Part shown: positions 1 to 55,388 of the stretch, piece after piece
Position numbering within the stretch: position 1 is the stretch's first letter
How the letters are laid out: the number at the start of each line of letters is the position of its first letter
Source: Robiginitomaculum sp.
GTDB taxonomy: Bacteria > Pseudomonadota > Alphaproteobacteria > Caulobacterales > Maricaulaceae
NCBI GenBank assembly: GCA_015485155.1
Contig: WFUF01000025.1
Span: forward strand, 186,001 to 250,000
Reading direction: 5' to 3'
DNA: 64,000 bases
Notes under the pieces: generated by a model
Database searches by the model: none
What the model was told of the DNA's origin: nothing
Seen by the model: only the letters and a program-made list of their open reading frames with translations
Position numbers and translations under genes: made by a program

Positions 1-432
1 AGTTTTCGTGAGGGCATGGATTTGGTGGAAGAGGCAGCAGCCTATCTTGACGGGCCGGGCCGCGAAGAATCCCGCGCTCTGCCGCGGGCAGGCGCTTTGG
101 CTTATGCCGGCGAGAGCATGCGCCTGACCACACGCTTAATGCAGGTTGCAAGCTGGTTGCTTGTACAGCGGGCAGTTCGCGAAAAGGAAATGAGCATCGA
201 GGACGCCTGTGATGAAAAATACCGGCTGGGCGATGATGCTATTCGCAAAGCAAACTTTTCCGGGGCCGAGACCCCCGCAGCCTTGCAAAAACTAATCAAG
301 CGCACAGACCAAGTTTATGATTCCATTCAGCGGCTGGACAAGCAGATTTACGGTGAACAGGGCCGCAATGGCCCCGCTAACCCGGTATCAGAGCATCACG
401 CACGATTGTCTGCAGCTTTTGGAGATCGCTAA
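1..432 (+). CDS. rcdA: RcdA (DUF1465) CtrA-degradation adaptor, 5' end cut by window edge
   Basis: The frame is open from base 1 and ends at the TAA at 430-432, so the visible 143 residues lack the N-terminus. An ATG at 16 exists, but the residues before it (SFREG) resemble the conserved sequence that continues upstream in this family, so I treat the gene as truncated by the window. The segment LVEEAAAYLDGPGREESRAL followed by GALAYAGESMRLTTRLMQ is characteristic of DUF1465. In Caulobacter this family is RcdA, a cytoplasmic adaptor that helps deliver CtrA and other substrates to ClpXP at the stalked pole. The function is by homology. A hairpin repeat array begins four bases after the stop codon. 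Confidence 0.85.
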   Translation, partial: SFREGMDLVEEAAAYLDGPGREESRALPRAGALAYAGESMRLTTRLMQVASWLLVQRAVREKEMSIEDACDEKYRLGDDAIRKANFSGAETPAALQKLIKRTDQVYDSIQRLDKQIYGEQGRNGPANPVSEHHARLSAAFGDR

Positions 433-15624: not shown

Positions 15625-15959
15625 GGGGCAAACCCCTTTCGCCATTTTGGTACTTTCGCATAAGGCTTGATGTTGGTGCTGATAGAATTTGGGGGTTATC
15701 CGGGACCCAGCCTTAACAGATAGGGAAAATAATTAACCGGTATTGATAAATTGCCTTAGCTGCCATGGATACAGATTTTGCCGGTATGAGGATGGTTAGA
15801 TTAGATGGTGTCTTTGCCATAAATCTGTCCTATCGCTTTGCTGCTTGAGAAGTCTCTAATTGTCCTATCGCTTTGCTGCTTGAGGACTCTTTATTTGTCC
15901 TATCGCTTTGCTGCTTGAGGACATTTTGCTTCCAAAATGCTCAGGGCTAGTAGATATGG
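15625..15959. other. Intergenic region between mltB-type gene and flaEY
   Basis: This 335-base convergent gap begins with a short GC-rich hairpin at the mltB stop and contains the 35-base tandem repeat described separately (15826-15935). I see no credible gene in either strand in the first 200 bases. Confidence 0.6.
15826..15935 (+). repeat. 35-bp tandem repeat array (element B)
   Basis: TGTCCTATCGCTTTGCTGCT starts at 15826, 15861 and 15896, so the period is exactly 35. The second and third copies close with AGGAC and can pair with GTCCT at their starts; the first has lost this (AGAAG). After the third copy comes ATTTTGCTTCCAAAATGCTC, which resembles the right basal arm of the other hairpin elements. 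A left basal arm is absent, so this is a three-module array with one arm only. Confidence 0.85.
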
Positions 15960-24103: not shown

Positions 24104-24192
24104 AGAGCATTTTCGGCCAATATGGAAAGTTTTCTGTGTCTTATCGCTTCGCTGCTTTAAGGACAGGTTTTGCGGTTGAATAAACGCTCTAG
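24104..24192 (-). repeat. Hairpin repeat element C, one tip module
   Basis: On the plus strand it runs AGAGCATTTTCGGCC..., one module from GTCTT (24138) to AGGAC (24160-24164), then GGTTTTGCGGTTG and ends CGCTCT. Outer arms AGAGC and GCTCT are complementary. Read on the minus strand, its first bases include the TAG stop codon of the DUF465 gene (24189-24191), so the element provides that stop. The module stem GTCTT/AGGAC contains a G-U pair. Confidence 0.8.
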
Positions 24193-28913: not shown

Positions 28914-29600
28914 ATGAGTACGACAAAAACAATTTTAATCATCGATGACGATGATGATTTGCGTGAAACATTGAGCGAGCAGTTTGATCTGCACGAGGAG
29001 TTCCGGGTTCTGTGTGCCGCCAATGCCGGTGACGGGGTTGCAGCAGCAAAATCAGAGCATGTAAATGTGATTCTGCTGGATGTTGATCTTCCTGATATGG
29101 ATGGCCGTGAGGCGTGCAGATTGCTACGCAAAACCGGCATTGCGGTTCCCATTTTGATGCTTACGGGAGCCAGAACAGATGCCGACCAGATTCTGGGTCT
29201 GGATTCCGGGGCTAATGATTATGTCTTAAAGCCCTTCAAATTCAGCGTATTGCTGGCTCGTATTCGTGCACATTTGCGCTCCCATGAGCAAAGTGAAGAA
29301 GCTGTATTTACGGTTGGTCCCTACACTTTTCGGCCGAGCATGAAACAATTGCTTACCCAGGATGACCGGAAAATTCGATTAACGGAAAAAGAAACCGGAA
29401 TTCTAAAATACCTGTATCGTGCCGGAGGAAAGCCAGTATTGCGCGACGAATTATTGCACGAGGTTTGGGGCTATAATGCAAATGTCACAACTCACACACT
29501 AGAAACCCATATTTACCGGCTACGCCAGAAAATTGAGTCAAATCCCGGAGAGGCAAAAATTCTGCTAACCGAGGCAGGCGGTTATCGTCTGTCGCGCTAA
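28914..29600 (+). CDS. OmpR/PhoB-type response regulator
   Basis: The protein is 228 residues from the ATG at 28914; a longer open frame upstream (from 28548) overlaps the transpeptidase in antisense and is rejected. Receiver domain 1-120 with D11-D15 acidic residues, phospho-acceptor D56 in ILLDVDLPDMDG, T/K residues in LMLTGAR and YVLKPF. A winged-helix domain (about 130-228) has LTEKETGILKYLYRAGGKPV and LETHIYRLRQKIE. Divergent from the L,D-transpeptidase; no sensor kinase adjacent. Its stop is followed at once by a repeat half-element. Confidence 0.9.
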   Translation: MSTTKTILIIDDDDDLRETLSEQFDLHEEFRVLCAANAGDGVAAAKSEHVNVILLDVDLPDMDGREACRLLRKTGIAVPILMLTGARTDADQILGLDSGANDYVLKPFKFSVLLARIRAHLRSHEQSEEAVFTVGPYTFRPSMKQLLTQDDRKIRLTEKETGILKYLYRAGGKPVLRDELLHEVWGYNANVTTHTLETHIYRLRQKIESNPGEAKILLTEAGGYRLSR

Positions 29601-29650
29601 AGCATTTTCGGCCAATATGGAAACTGAGAGTTCTCTATGACTTCCATGAT
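29601..29650 (+). repeat. Partial hairpin repeat element D
   Basis: The sequence AGCATTTTCGGCCAATATGGAA starts directly after the TAA of the regulator gene. It matches the left part of element C (24106-24127), but the right basal arm and a full tip module are missing. It is a degenerate half-element. Confidence 0.65.
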
Positions 29651-37738: not shown

Positions 37739-38223
37739 GTTGAGCTTCAAAATAATCCATACCTTCATCTATTGAGCTGATAGCGGGTCTGGCTGCGGAT
37801 TGCTGCCGCCCAAACAAAATTTTGGTCAAGAGCCTTATCCACCGCCTAAAATCTGACACAGACACGGTAAATTCGGCAAGGACTGTAAATGGTTTGCCTG
37901 CACTCGGTAAAATACCAAAACCTGAAACCCTTATGAGTATTGGTTCCCTATAGGGCTGAAAAGAAGTATTCACCTGTCAAAGAGCTTCTGTTTGGGTGCA
38001 AGGCACCCCAACCCTTGCATTATAACAGTTTTTGGGCATGCGGGCATCTTTTGCACTTATCCTCACACCTCAAGGGTCAGTCAGTGTCATCAAGGGTCAT
38101 TTAAGGGTAAGTTTATTAACCACAAGTGCTGTTTTGGTGTGATTACAGGGTGGCGCAAGTATTACTCAAGGGACAGTGAAAATTTGCGCTGACCCTAAAA
38201 GTGACCCTTCGCCGGGAGCAGAC
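37739..38223. other. Intergenic region with AGGGTCA/TGACCCT motifs
   Basis: The 485 bases after the tRNA carry AAGGGTCAG at 38072-38080 and ATCAAGGGTCAT at 38089-38100, with TGACCCT at 38190 and 38202 in the opposite sense, matching the set at 25321-25450. No gene is clear; a short plus-strand frame at 37992-38192 has no recognised similarity. It is a tRNA-downstream site, where integrated elements often lie, but no integrase remains. Confidence 0.5.
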
Positions 38224-45283: not shown

Positions 45284-45503
45284 GCATTTTTAGCAAAAGT
45301 GGGAAACTCTTTTAATGTCCTATCGCCTATCGCCTAGCGGCTACTTGAGGAGTCTTTTAGTGTCCTACCGCTTCGCTACTTGAGGACGGGTTTTGCGGTT
45401 CAAAAATGCGATAAACAAAGATTTGCATTTTTAGCAAAAGCAGGAAGTTCTTGTTTGTTCTATCGCTTCATACTTTAAGAACCGGTTTTGGGTTCAAAAT
45501 GTA
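45284..45503 (+). repeat. Double hairpin repeat element with three tip modules (element E)
   Basis: GCATTTTTAGCAAAAGTGGGAA starts at 45284, directly after the gdh stop. Two modules lie in its tip (GTCCT at 45317 with a degenerate end; GTCCT 45362-45366 with AGGAC 45383-45387), then GGTTTTGCGGTTCAAAAATGC closes the hairpin. A 15-base linker (GATAAACAAAGATTT) leads to a second basal hairpin with one module whose ends are GTTCT (45457-45461) and AGAAC (45478-45482), closing with CCGGTTTTGGG. The changes from GTCCT/AGGAC to GTTCT/AGAAC are compensatory. Confidence 0.85.
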
Positions 45504-49627: not shown

Positions 49628-49840
49628 GTCGGTATGTTTGCAAGCAAGGCCATGGGTAATGGCTGAGCCTGCAAACATGACAACAGGGAATACGGTGAGA
49701 AATTTATTTCAAATCCGTAACTGTGCCCGCAGCCGTAAGCGGTTGGCCGAGCGCAAAACCCACTGGAGCAGATCGTTAGAAAATGCTTTGGGAAGGGGTG
49801 CTCAATGGCTGTTAATCCGTAAGTCGGAAGACCTGCCGAC
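49628..49840 (+). ncRNA. Cobalamin (AdoCbl) riboswitch
   Basis: The region has the cobalamin aptamer signature: P1 stem GTCGG (49628-49632) with CCGAC (49836-49840), GGGAATACGGTG, AATCCGTAACTGTGCCCGCA, GCCGTAAGCG, CCACTGG, GGGAAGG and the B12 box AGTCGGAAGACCTGCC (49822-49837). It lies 128 bases before the predicted btuB start and would repress the btu operon when cobalamin is plentiful. Expression platform is not resolved; TCTGA/TCAGA hairpin after it (about 49853-49869) is a candidate. Confidence 0.95.
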
Positions 49841-49967
49841 ACTCGTCCGCTTCTGATCCGGGGTCAGATCATCAAAGCGCGGGTACATCAATACCGTTCG
49901 TGGCGAAATGTTTTGGTTTTCGGCAATTGACCTGTTCAAGAGCCGTAATTTGTCATGGAGAACGACA

Positions 49968-55270: not shown

Positions 55271-55388
55271 GCATTTTTAGCAAAAGTGGGAAGCTCTTTT
55301 AATGTCCTACCGCCTATCGGCTACTTGAGGACTCCTTGCTGCGCTACCGCTTCACTACTTGAGGACGGGGTTTTGGGTCGAAATGTGC
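55271..55388 (+). repeat. Hairpin repeat element with two tip modules (element F)
   Basis: GCATTTTTAGCAAAAGTGGGAA starts at 55271. Two modules occupy the tip: GTCCT (55314-55318) with AGGAC (55348-55352 approx.), and a second starting GCGCT (55341-55345) but ending AGGAC, so its ends are mismatched. It closes with GGGGTTTTGGGTCGAAATG. It lies 29 bases after the FkbM stop. Confidence 0.8.

Follow-up and report, generated by a model that had tools for sequence, protein, structure and literature searches.

We analysed a stretch of DNA of 64,000 nucleotides (hereafter the window; C25:186001-250000) that forms part of a genome of 2,394,068 bases (2.39-Mb) in 27 contigs, referred to here as G000. 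The focal site adjoins an ORF for a 1633-aa protein, for which the named encoding records are six Robiginitomaculum MAG contigs, the best of them 98% identical; Robiginitomaculum MAGs are the nearest named relatives of G000, with the NCBI lineage Maricaulales. One nucleotide past the stop codon of this ORF starts a basal palindrome whose tip holds two modules (45284-45409), the first a 36-nt module with a non-complementary outer triplet (GTC/GAG, 45317-45352) and the second a 26-nt module (GTC/GAC, 45362-45387). A second basal palindrome follows at 45425-45503, with a worn 3' arm and one module in its tip (GTTCT/AGAAC, 45457-45482). These and all the other elements of the window lie on the plus strand.

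A first-pass annotation of the window had described six intergenic sites at which a basal hairpin carries copies of a module in its loop, and we found the basal arms and modules at the positions that it gave. The module-in-tip arrangement is present in both palindromes of the focal site; at 554-640, where a single 36-nt module of the long loop type has the outer stem GCGCT/AGCGC (585-620); at 24104-24192, where a palindrome with variant arms (GCATTTTCGGCCAATATGG) holds one module whose stem, GTCTT/AGGAC, includes one T-G pair (24138-24164); and at 55271-55388, where a palindrome with a worn 3' arm holds a 29-nt GTC/GAC module (55304-55332) and a 26-nt module with a non-complementary outer triplet (GCG/GAC, 55341-55366). 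It is absent, however, from the site given as 15826-15935, which consists of three tandem modules with a 35-nt period (GTC/AAG, GTC/GAC, GTC/GAC) and then a basal 3' arm only (15827-15922), and from 29601-29650, a variant left arm alone, with no module, that starts one base past the stop of the ORF ending at 29600. The units at 436-479 and 495-538 are empty basal hairpins, the second of them within an exact 59-nt repeat of the first (repeat family D7). The stem versions reported, GTCCT/AGGAC and the three others named above with their positions, were read correctly, and module ends do pair in several versions; the annotation did not mention, however, that three of the ten window modules are non-complementary at the outer triplet (those at 15827, GTC/AAG, and at 45317 and 55341). 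A different repeat was seen at 37951-38208, near a tRNA-Gly gene; parts of it match two loci, L220 and L231, of a sister genome, G006 (mean identity over all pieces 92.7-92.8%), and a stretch of L126 matches there too.

Copies of both units occur in G000 far beyond the six sites. The 20-nt basal arm (GCATTTTTAGCAAAAGTGGG) gave 53+66 matches genome-wide and the 26-nt module 45+41, in each case at up to 3 mismatches and with zero matches to the reversed-pattern control. By parsing the stretches around the listed arm and module sites, we obtained at least 203 modules in 89 arrays (206 parsed, minus 3 double parses; the module at 45457-45482 was missed by the parser and lies outside the 203). Each array contains 1 to 8 modules, such that the zero to two modules per tip that had been proposed apply within the window but not to the genome. 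At many sites, empty basal units of ~60 nt, between one and three in number, come first, and then a unit with one or more modules in its tip, placed between GTGGGAA and GGTTTTGC. Repeat copy number in G000 is probably underestimated, since contig ends (e.g. L061, L083, L084, L091, L104, L117, L119) were seen to lie in or beside repeats.

Each module is built of a T-tract, a 5-bp outer stem, a fixed internal loop and a variable inner hairpin, according to the pattern T-tract, three or four bases, NNNCTAYCG, inner hairpin, CTRCTTGAG, and then the complement of NNN. The module loops in G000 are TTC (93), CTAGCG (71), CTATCG (12), GACGGCAAGCCTC (11) and others (16), and because of these loop variants the modules are mostly 26, 29 or 36 nt long, and not of the constant 26-27 nt first reported. 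In 53 modules from other genomes, T makes up 55-79% per position at -9 to -5 of the module, and no conservation was found 3' of it. The T-tract seems to travel together with the module, since one coding insertion (L143, described below) holds both tract and hairpin.

The first-pass annotation had treated arm and module as a single architecture. We instead identified two repeat families, with largely separate distributions. A 55-base query of the basal palindrome matched 152 plasmid records at E<=10, of which 46 are from Rhizobium and 36 match 80% or more of the query in a single place; the 20 matches listed are 80-85% identical over 84-98% of the query, with 4e-6 as the best listed E. The plasmid matches in Rhizobium, Sphingobium, Shinella and others agree with the earlier suggestion that this palindrome resembles intergenic palindromes of alphaproteobacteria. 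Its core (AAAAGTGGGAACCGGTTTT) is kept in other alphaproteobacterial genomes, in which the arms differ yet still match each other (e.g. GCATCG/CGATGC, GCGCGTT/AACGCGC and GTGCATTC/GAATGCAC).

At up to 2 mismatches, we counted 104 basal cores in G014, 59 in G009 and 27 in G016, where strict modules number 9, 7 and 9, respectively. Conversely, G026 has 26 modules and zero basal cores, and genomes of genus g21, which may be Brevundimonas, have up to 37 modules, with no core in the five genomes checked, which are not the module-richest. G000 and G006 are the sole genomes seen with well over 100 modules plus dozens of cores (48 and 37). A looser, order-wide module pattern matched 275 of 398 genomes; its reversed control was about equally frequent in many of them, and we therefore restricted its use to high-count genomes. 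Modules and basal palindromes mostly occur apart, and outside the species pair the module occurs mostly without the palindrome. Of the 95 loose matches to the module recorded at 76 loci in other genomes, many being chance hits, one is nested (L137, position 1498, in G009 of the same genus), inside a palindrome with other arms (AACCCAAAAAGTGGGAAC ... ATTTTTTGGTT). From this single copy, nesting has occurred at least once outside the species pair; as far as we looked among the genomes examined, dense nesting is limited to G000 and G006.

We investigated the complementarity of the outer stem using shuffles that take no account of relatedness among modules. In G000, exact complementarity of the outer triplets was found in 125 of 203 modules, against a shuffled mean of 69.8 and a count reached by 0 of 5000 shuffles. 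The complementary types are GTC/GAC (82), GCG/CGC (27), CTC/GAG (13), GTT/AAC (2) and ATC/GAT (1); the 78 modules that are not fully complementary are chiefly GTC/GAG (25), GCG/GAG (11) and GTC/CGC (7), with one extra G allowed, and just 4 further modules pair fully if G-U is allowed. In the sister genome, 116 of 173 modules are complementary, versus 67.2 in shuffles. As the G000 and G006 copies are related, the modules of other genomes provide the stronger test of pairing. Here, with L139 and L149 left out (6 of 59 modules), 46 of 53 modules are complementary (shuffled mean 14.8, reached by 0 of 20000 shuffles), or 41 of 48 versus a mean of 12.2 when only modules distinct per locus are counted, and eight complementary triplet types occur (GCG, GGC, GTG, GCC, GTC, GGG, GCT and AGG with their partners). 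In modules from other genomes, the three inner pairs also agree in 19 of 24 cases, versus a shuffled mean of 7.0. The position next outward of the outer triplet has no clear pairing in the other-genome modules, and the CT/AG pairs are fixed by the search pattern, from which we take the outer stem to be of five pairs.

A similar result was obtained with a gap-free alignment (A1) of 18 rows, hand-chosen from the other-genome modules and all 30 nt long. In this alignment, 96.5% of cells are paired versus 76.6% in shuffles, and the covariation score is 0.441 versus 0.098 shuffled and at most 0.060 with the partner slid; the two measures based on counting pairs or types are unexceptional, being reached by 135 and 64 of 500 shuffles. 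Two other pairing arrangements were considered and rejected: that across the spacer of neighbouring modules (55 of 114 versus 40.9 shuffled, 1 of 5000 shuffles), which is weaker than pairing within modules, and that between the two end modules of an array (29 of 55 versus 22.1 shuffled, 40 of 5000 shuffles).

With complementary triplets above the shuffled counts, a genome-wide excess of paired changes exists, and its lack is what the first-pass annotation had named as grounds for abandoning the hairpin. The matched-pair stem changes across related bacteria point, on sequence comparison, to a fold that is kept. The annotation had gone further, reading the paired changes as selection for an RNA or DNA hairpin; the excess of pairing stands, but the step to selection does not follow from it. 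Wobble pairs are rare and half-switched modules many, so that recombination between module types and hairpin-templated copying also need to be considered. A mutational origin of the paired changes, in which both arms of a stem are changed in one step, through quasipalindrome correction or through gene conversion between module types, would fit the whole-triplet switches, the few wobble intermediates and the many half-switched copies. We nevertheless regard it as improbable, because pairing does not extend past the fifth pair and the genera share a fixed internal loop, whereas templated correction would be expected to carry pairing into the loop.

The folding energies of the elements were compared with those of shuffled sequences. 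The composite element at 45284-45409 folds no better than shuffles (RNA z 0.63, DNA z 0.02), and that at 554-640 gave an RNA z of -0.26. Single modules fold slightly or not above shuffles (RNA z -0.54 to -2.05; DNA z -0.17 and -1.33), and the empty basal hairpin modestly so (RNA z -1.85 and -2.50, the former for the unit at 436-479, which folds at -13.9 kcal/mol). As the energies of the composites are not beyond those of shuffles, it is covariation, rather than stability, that carries the case. In an Rfam search of the window and seven element-bearing loci, the gathering score was reached by tRNA and, in the window, by a cobalamin riboswitch only (49643-49854, 80.9 bits), which lies upstream of an ORF that begins at 49908; at element-bearing loci, the BjrC68, ctRNA and plastid matches fall below gathering scores, and membership of a known RNA family was accordingly rejected.

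We identified turnover of the arrays between G000 and its sister genome. G006 loci matched G000 element regions in 42 of 50 cases. At 23 sites that were comparable on both sides (one empty duplicate row of 24 being dropped), with flank identity of 91.8-98%, none of the orthologous arrays has the same layout (arm/module order) or length, G006 being a fragmented MAG, 77% complete, in which assembly error is possible at single sites. The focal site has units of two modules and then one in G000, but in the sister an empty unit and then units of one, two and one. Judged by its left flank, one more site carries a module array in G006 and a lone, differently armed palindrome in G000. Searching for a clean empty site with target duplication, we obtained none; L210, the one examined of eight candidates (the others being L201, L205, L207, L212, L214, L222 and L241), was rejected as a presence/absence site because its flanks are joined from two G000 contigs, the left of which has a lone palindrome with different arms. 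Separately, four G006 loci (L220, L231, L244 and L246) join flanks that lie at different G000 element sites, as where window 1-421 adjoins the sequence from window 55392 on, through either rearrangement at the repeats or misassembly.

The placement of the elements was surveyed at the 68 G000 sites flanked on either side by a called gene, using mechanically called ORFs. The neighbours are convergent at 41 sites, run in one direction at 26 and are divergent at 1, and 6 of the 68 sites overlap a mechanical ORF. At 57 of the 68 sites the 5' gene is on the same strand as the element (binomial p 1.3e-8). At 39 of 68 sites (39 of the 57 same-strand sites), the element starts, in sense, 0 to 6 nt past the upstream stop codon, and at 26 of those 39 it lies exactly one base after the stop. 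The stops ahead of these 39 elements are TAG (21), TAA (16) and TGA (2), compared to TAG 14, TAA 18 and TGA 19 for 51 window ORFs, and at three further G000 sites the ORF continues for 10 nt inside the element, whose own TAG ends it. The element at the focal site did not supply the stop, since in relatives that lack it the ORF ends at the same codon. Three G000 arrays begin 7-9 nt past the 3' end of a tRNA, and in other genomes a module lies just after a tRNA at L138 (tRNA confirmed) and at L141 and L148 (by eye). Modules at L145 and L151 lie beside pieces that resemble tRNA 3' ends, with T-arm, CCA and T-run, likewise by eye.

Coding copies were identified in other genomes. A listing of ORFs of at least 150 aa with 90 nt on each side of the module contained 10 of the 53 modules, several of the ORFs being probably not genes. 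In the aminotransferase of L143, an in-frame insertion containing T-tract and hairpin corresponds to a 14-residue gap relative to 1vjo, between YW and the conserved YHHTAP, and in the flavoprotein of L134 a 7-residue in-frame gap was found relative to 3v76. Two other ORFs, a terminase-like ORF in L134 and a TrmB ORF in L311 (RSSSEAIAQTEE repeats), read through modules that may likewise be insertions. The same terminase-like ORF has two related stretches, PPPPAGE and PPPPEGE, that look like another in-frame repeat family. At L136 (G007), a module is flanked by two copies of a 39-bp sequence resembling a gene start, the same module being found in L140 (G002); this duplication might mark how the module inserts.

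One interpretation of the placement is that the elements are chiefly functional components of 3' untranslated regions, whose hairpins block 3'-to-5' exonucleases or damp translation at the stop codon, with selection on the RNA keeping the stems. It would account for the sense orientation, for the start within 6 nt of the stop at 39 of 57 same-strand sites, for the modules directly after tRNAs, and for sites that are kept between the sisters while their contents are exchanged. The scarcity of G-U pairs, an array size that differs at each orthologous site compared and the coding copies in relatives argue against it, and we consider this interpretation unlikely overall, with a candidate RNA role at 3' ends being possible. 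That the elements are ordinary intrinsic transcription terminators seems very remote, for all that they follow stop codons and that T-rich spacers come after many modules: the conserved T-tract precedes the hairpin, and a terminator consensus scan of four of the six window sites, confined to loops of 3-8 and so blind to stems with longer loops, detected none inside the elements (found versus shuffle-expected 0/1.6, 0/0.7, 1/1.1 and 0/1.3, the single hit being in the upstream gene).

We additionally identified an enrichment of GANTC in the arrays. GANTC occurs at 7.74 per kb inside elements versus 1.39 outside (103 found versus 26.8 in a Markov simulation), with 6.75 inside and 1.20 outside per kb in the sister, and it is present in 88 of 114 inter-module spacers, with the middle base G in 43, C in 42 and A in 3. 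The window as a whole is depleted in GANTC (89 found versus 171.5 expected from dinucleotides), the repeats being rich in it. A CcrM-like methylase is encoded in the genome, and the arrays could be carriers of CcrM methylation sites in which selection would act on the GANTC of the spacers, a proposal also made for the CIR repeats of Caulobacter. We consider this quite improbable, since GANTC is found in just 13 of 89 3' flanks of last modules, in neither the empty basal units nor the array spacers examined at L138 and L144, from two further genomes of the genus, and since the CcrM model score of 608 is below the curated cut-off of 830.

The explanation that we favour, and hold to be somewhat probable, is of two small palindromic repeat families, one nested in the other, that are mobile, with the fold kept and copies persisting at transcript 3' ends. 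The basal palindrome would be a variant form of an intergenic palindrome that is widespread in the Alphaproteobacteria, and the module a second, mobile hairpin repeat, present in several families of the order. The module may have entered the tip of the basal palindrome in the G000 lineage, after which arrays of both would have spread and been reshuffled. The unit kept would be the folded single strand, for which any outer triplet works given a matching partner; the fold would presumably be recognised by a mobilising enzyme, and the arrays would change through recombination among their many copies. Copies would persist where the hairpin does least harm or helps, past stop codons and tRNA 3' ends and in sense, with a transcribed hairpin at the 3' end of a message perhaps tolerated or protective.

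The identity of the mobilising enzyme was considered. Y1_Tnp has 0 matches in G000 and is absent from 22 of 26 module-bearing genomes, G000 included, being present in 4; mobilisation by RAYT was rejected because of this distribution. A further reading, which we advance tentatively, is a mobile hairpin family of ~40 nt across the order, moved by a non-Y1 enzyme that reads the fold and not the sequence of the stem; each unit would comprise the T-tract, the outer stem of five pairs, an asymmetric internal loop that is fixed, and an inner hairpin free to vary. The landing places of such a family, proposed with the same reserve, would be after stops, after tRNAs, in frame in enzymes and in the tip of the palindrome. 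Should the elements be moved by something other than a Y1 transposase, that activity has yet to be found. The elements offer a clean natural data set on whether the hairpin is kept as single-stranded DNA for its mover or as RNA at the transcript end, and both ideas can be tested with the matched-pair triplets, the ~200 copies per genome and the layouts that differ at 23 sister sites.

Finally, we compared the elements with known small palindromic repeats; in the open-licence literature searched, no description of the module or of the nested form was found. REPs are described, in the parts of PMC3733652 drawn on here, as lying near 3' ends, often supplying a TAG stop, forming clusters and having copies inside genes, and GTAG-type REPs as having an unpaired GTAG at one end of a stem of 6-13 bp. 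Like the GTAG/CGTC-tagged REPs and BIMEs of that account, our elements are short palindromes between genes, present in high copy number near 3' ends and with complementary variants of the stem, and the general features of REPs (many copies, mostly intergenic, near 3' ends, with complementary stem changes) are all found in them. Unlike REPs as described there, they have no terminal GTAG/CGTC tag beside a stem of 6-9 bp, no Y1 transposase in G000, and one family set within the other's tip; on the minus strand of the module, G[T/C]AG lies inside the internal loop, between the 5-bp outer and the 1-3 bp inner stem, rather than unpaired at one end of a stem.

The Rickettsia palindromic elements (RPEs), which according to the portions of PMC2229807 and PMC10969869 used are ~105-150 bp long and located in frame inside conserved enzymes, resemble the module in its in-frame position within conserved proteins, which was seen in other genomes only (L143, L134). 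In contrast to these elements of 105-150 bp, the module unit measures 26-36 nt plus the T-tract and is mostly outside genes in G000. Among the palindromes of alphaproteobacteria, including RIME as partly described in PMC2573895, the basal unit is similar to rhizobial plasmid palindromes, and may be of the RIME type; it differs from the intergenic palindromes of that description in that its tip holds modules of another family. The GANTC enrichment and the CcrM-like gene recall, by analogy, the CcrM-associated intergenic repeats (CIR) of Caulobacter, which the excerpted account (PMC2229807) gives as ~110 bp, with two arms and a linker, and not intragenic. By that description only, the likeness extends to being intergenic, hairpin-forming, in part GANTC-bearing (many units lack it) and alphaproteobacterial, whereas the module has 26-36 nt and has coding copies in relatives, unlike repeats of ~110 bp with two arms and a linker for which no intragenic copies are described there. 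The nested hairpins look less like a novel class of system than like a new variety of small palindromic repeat, a group already known.
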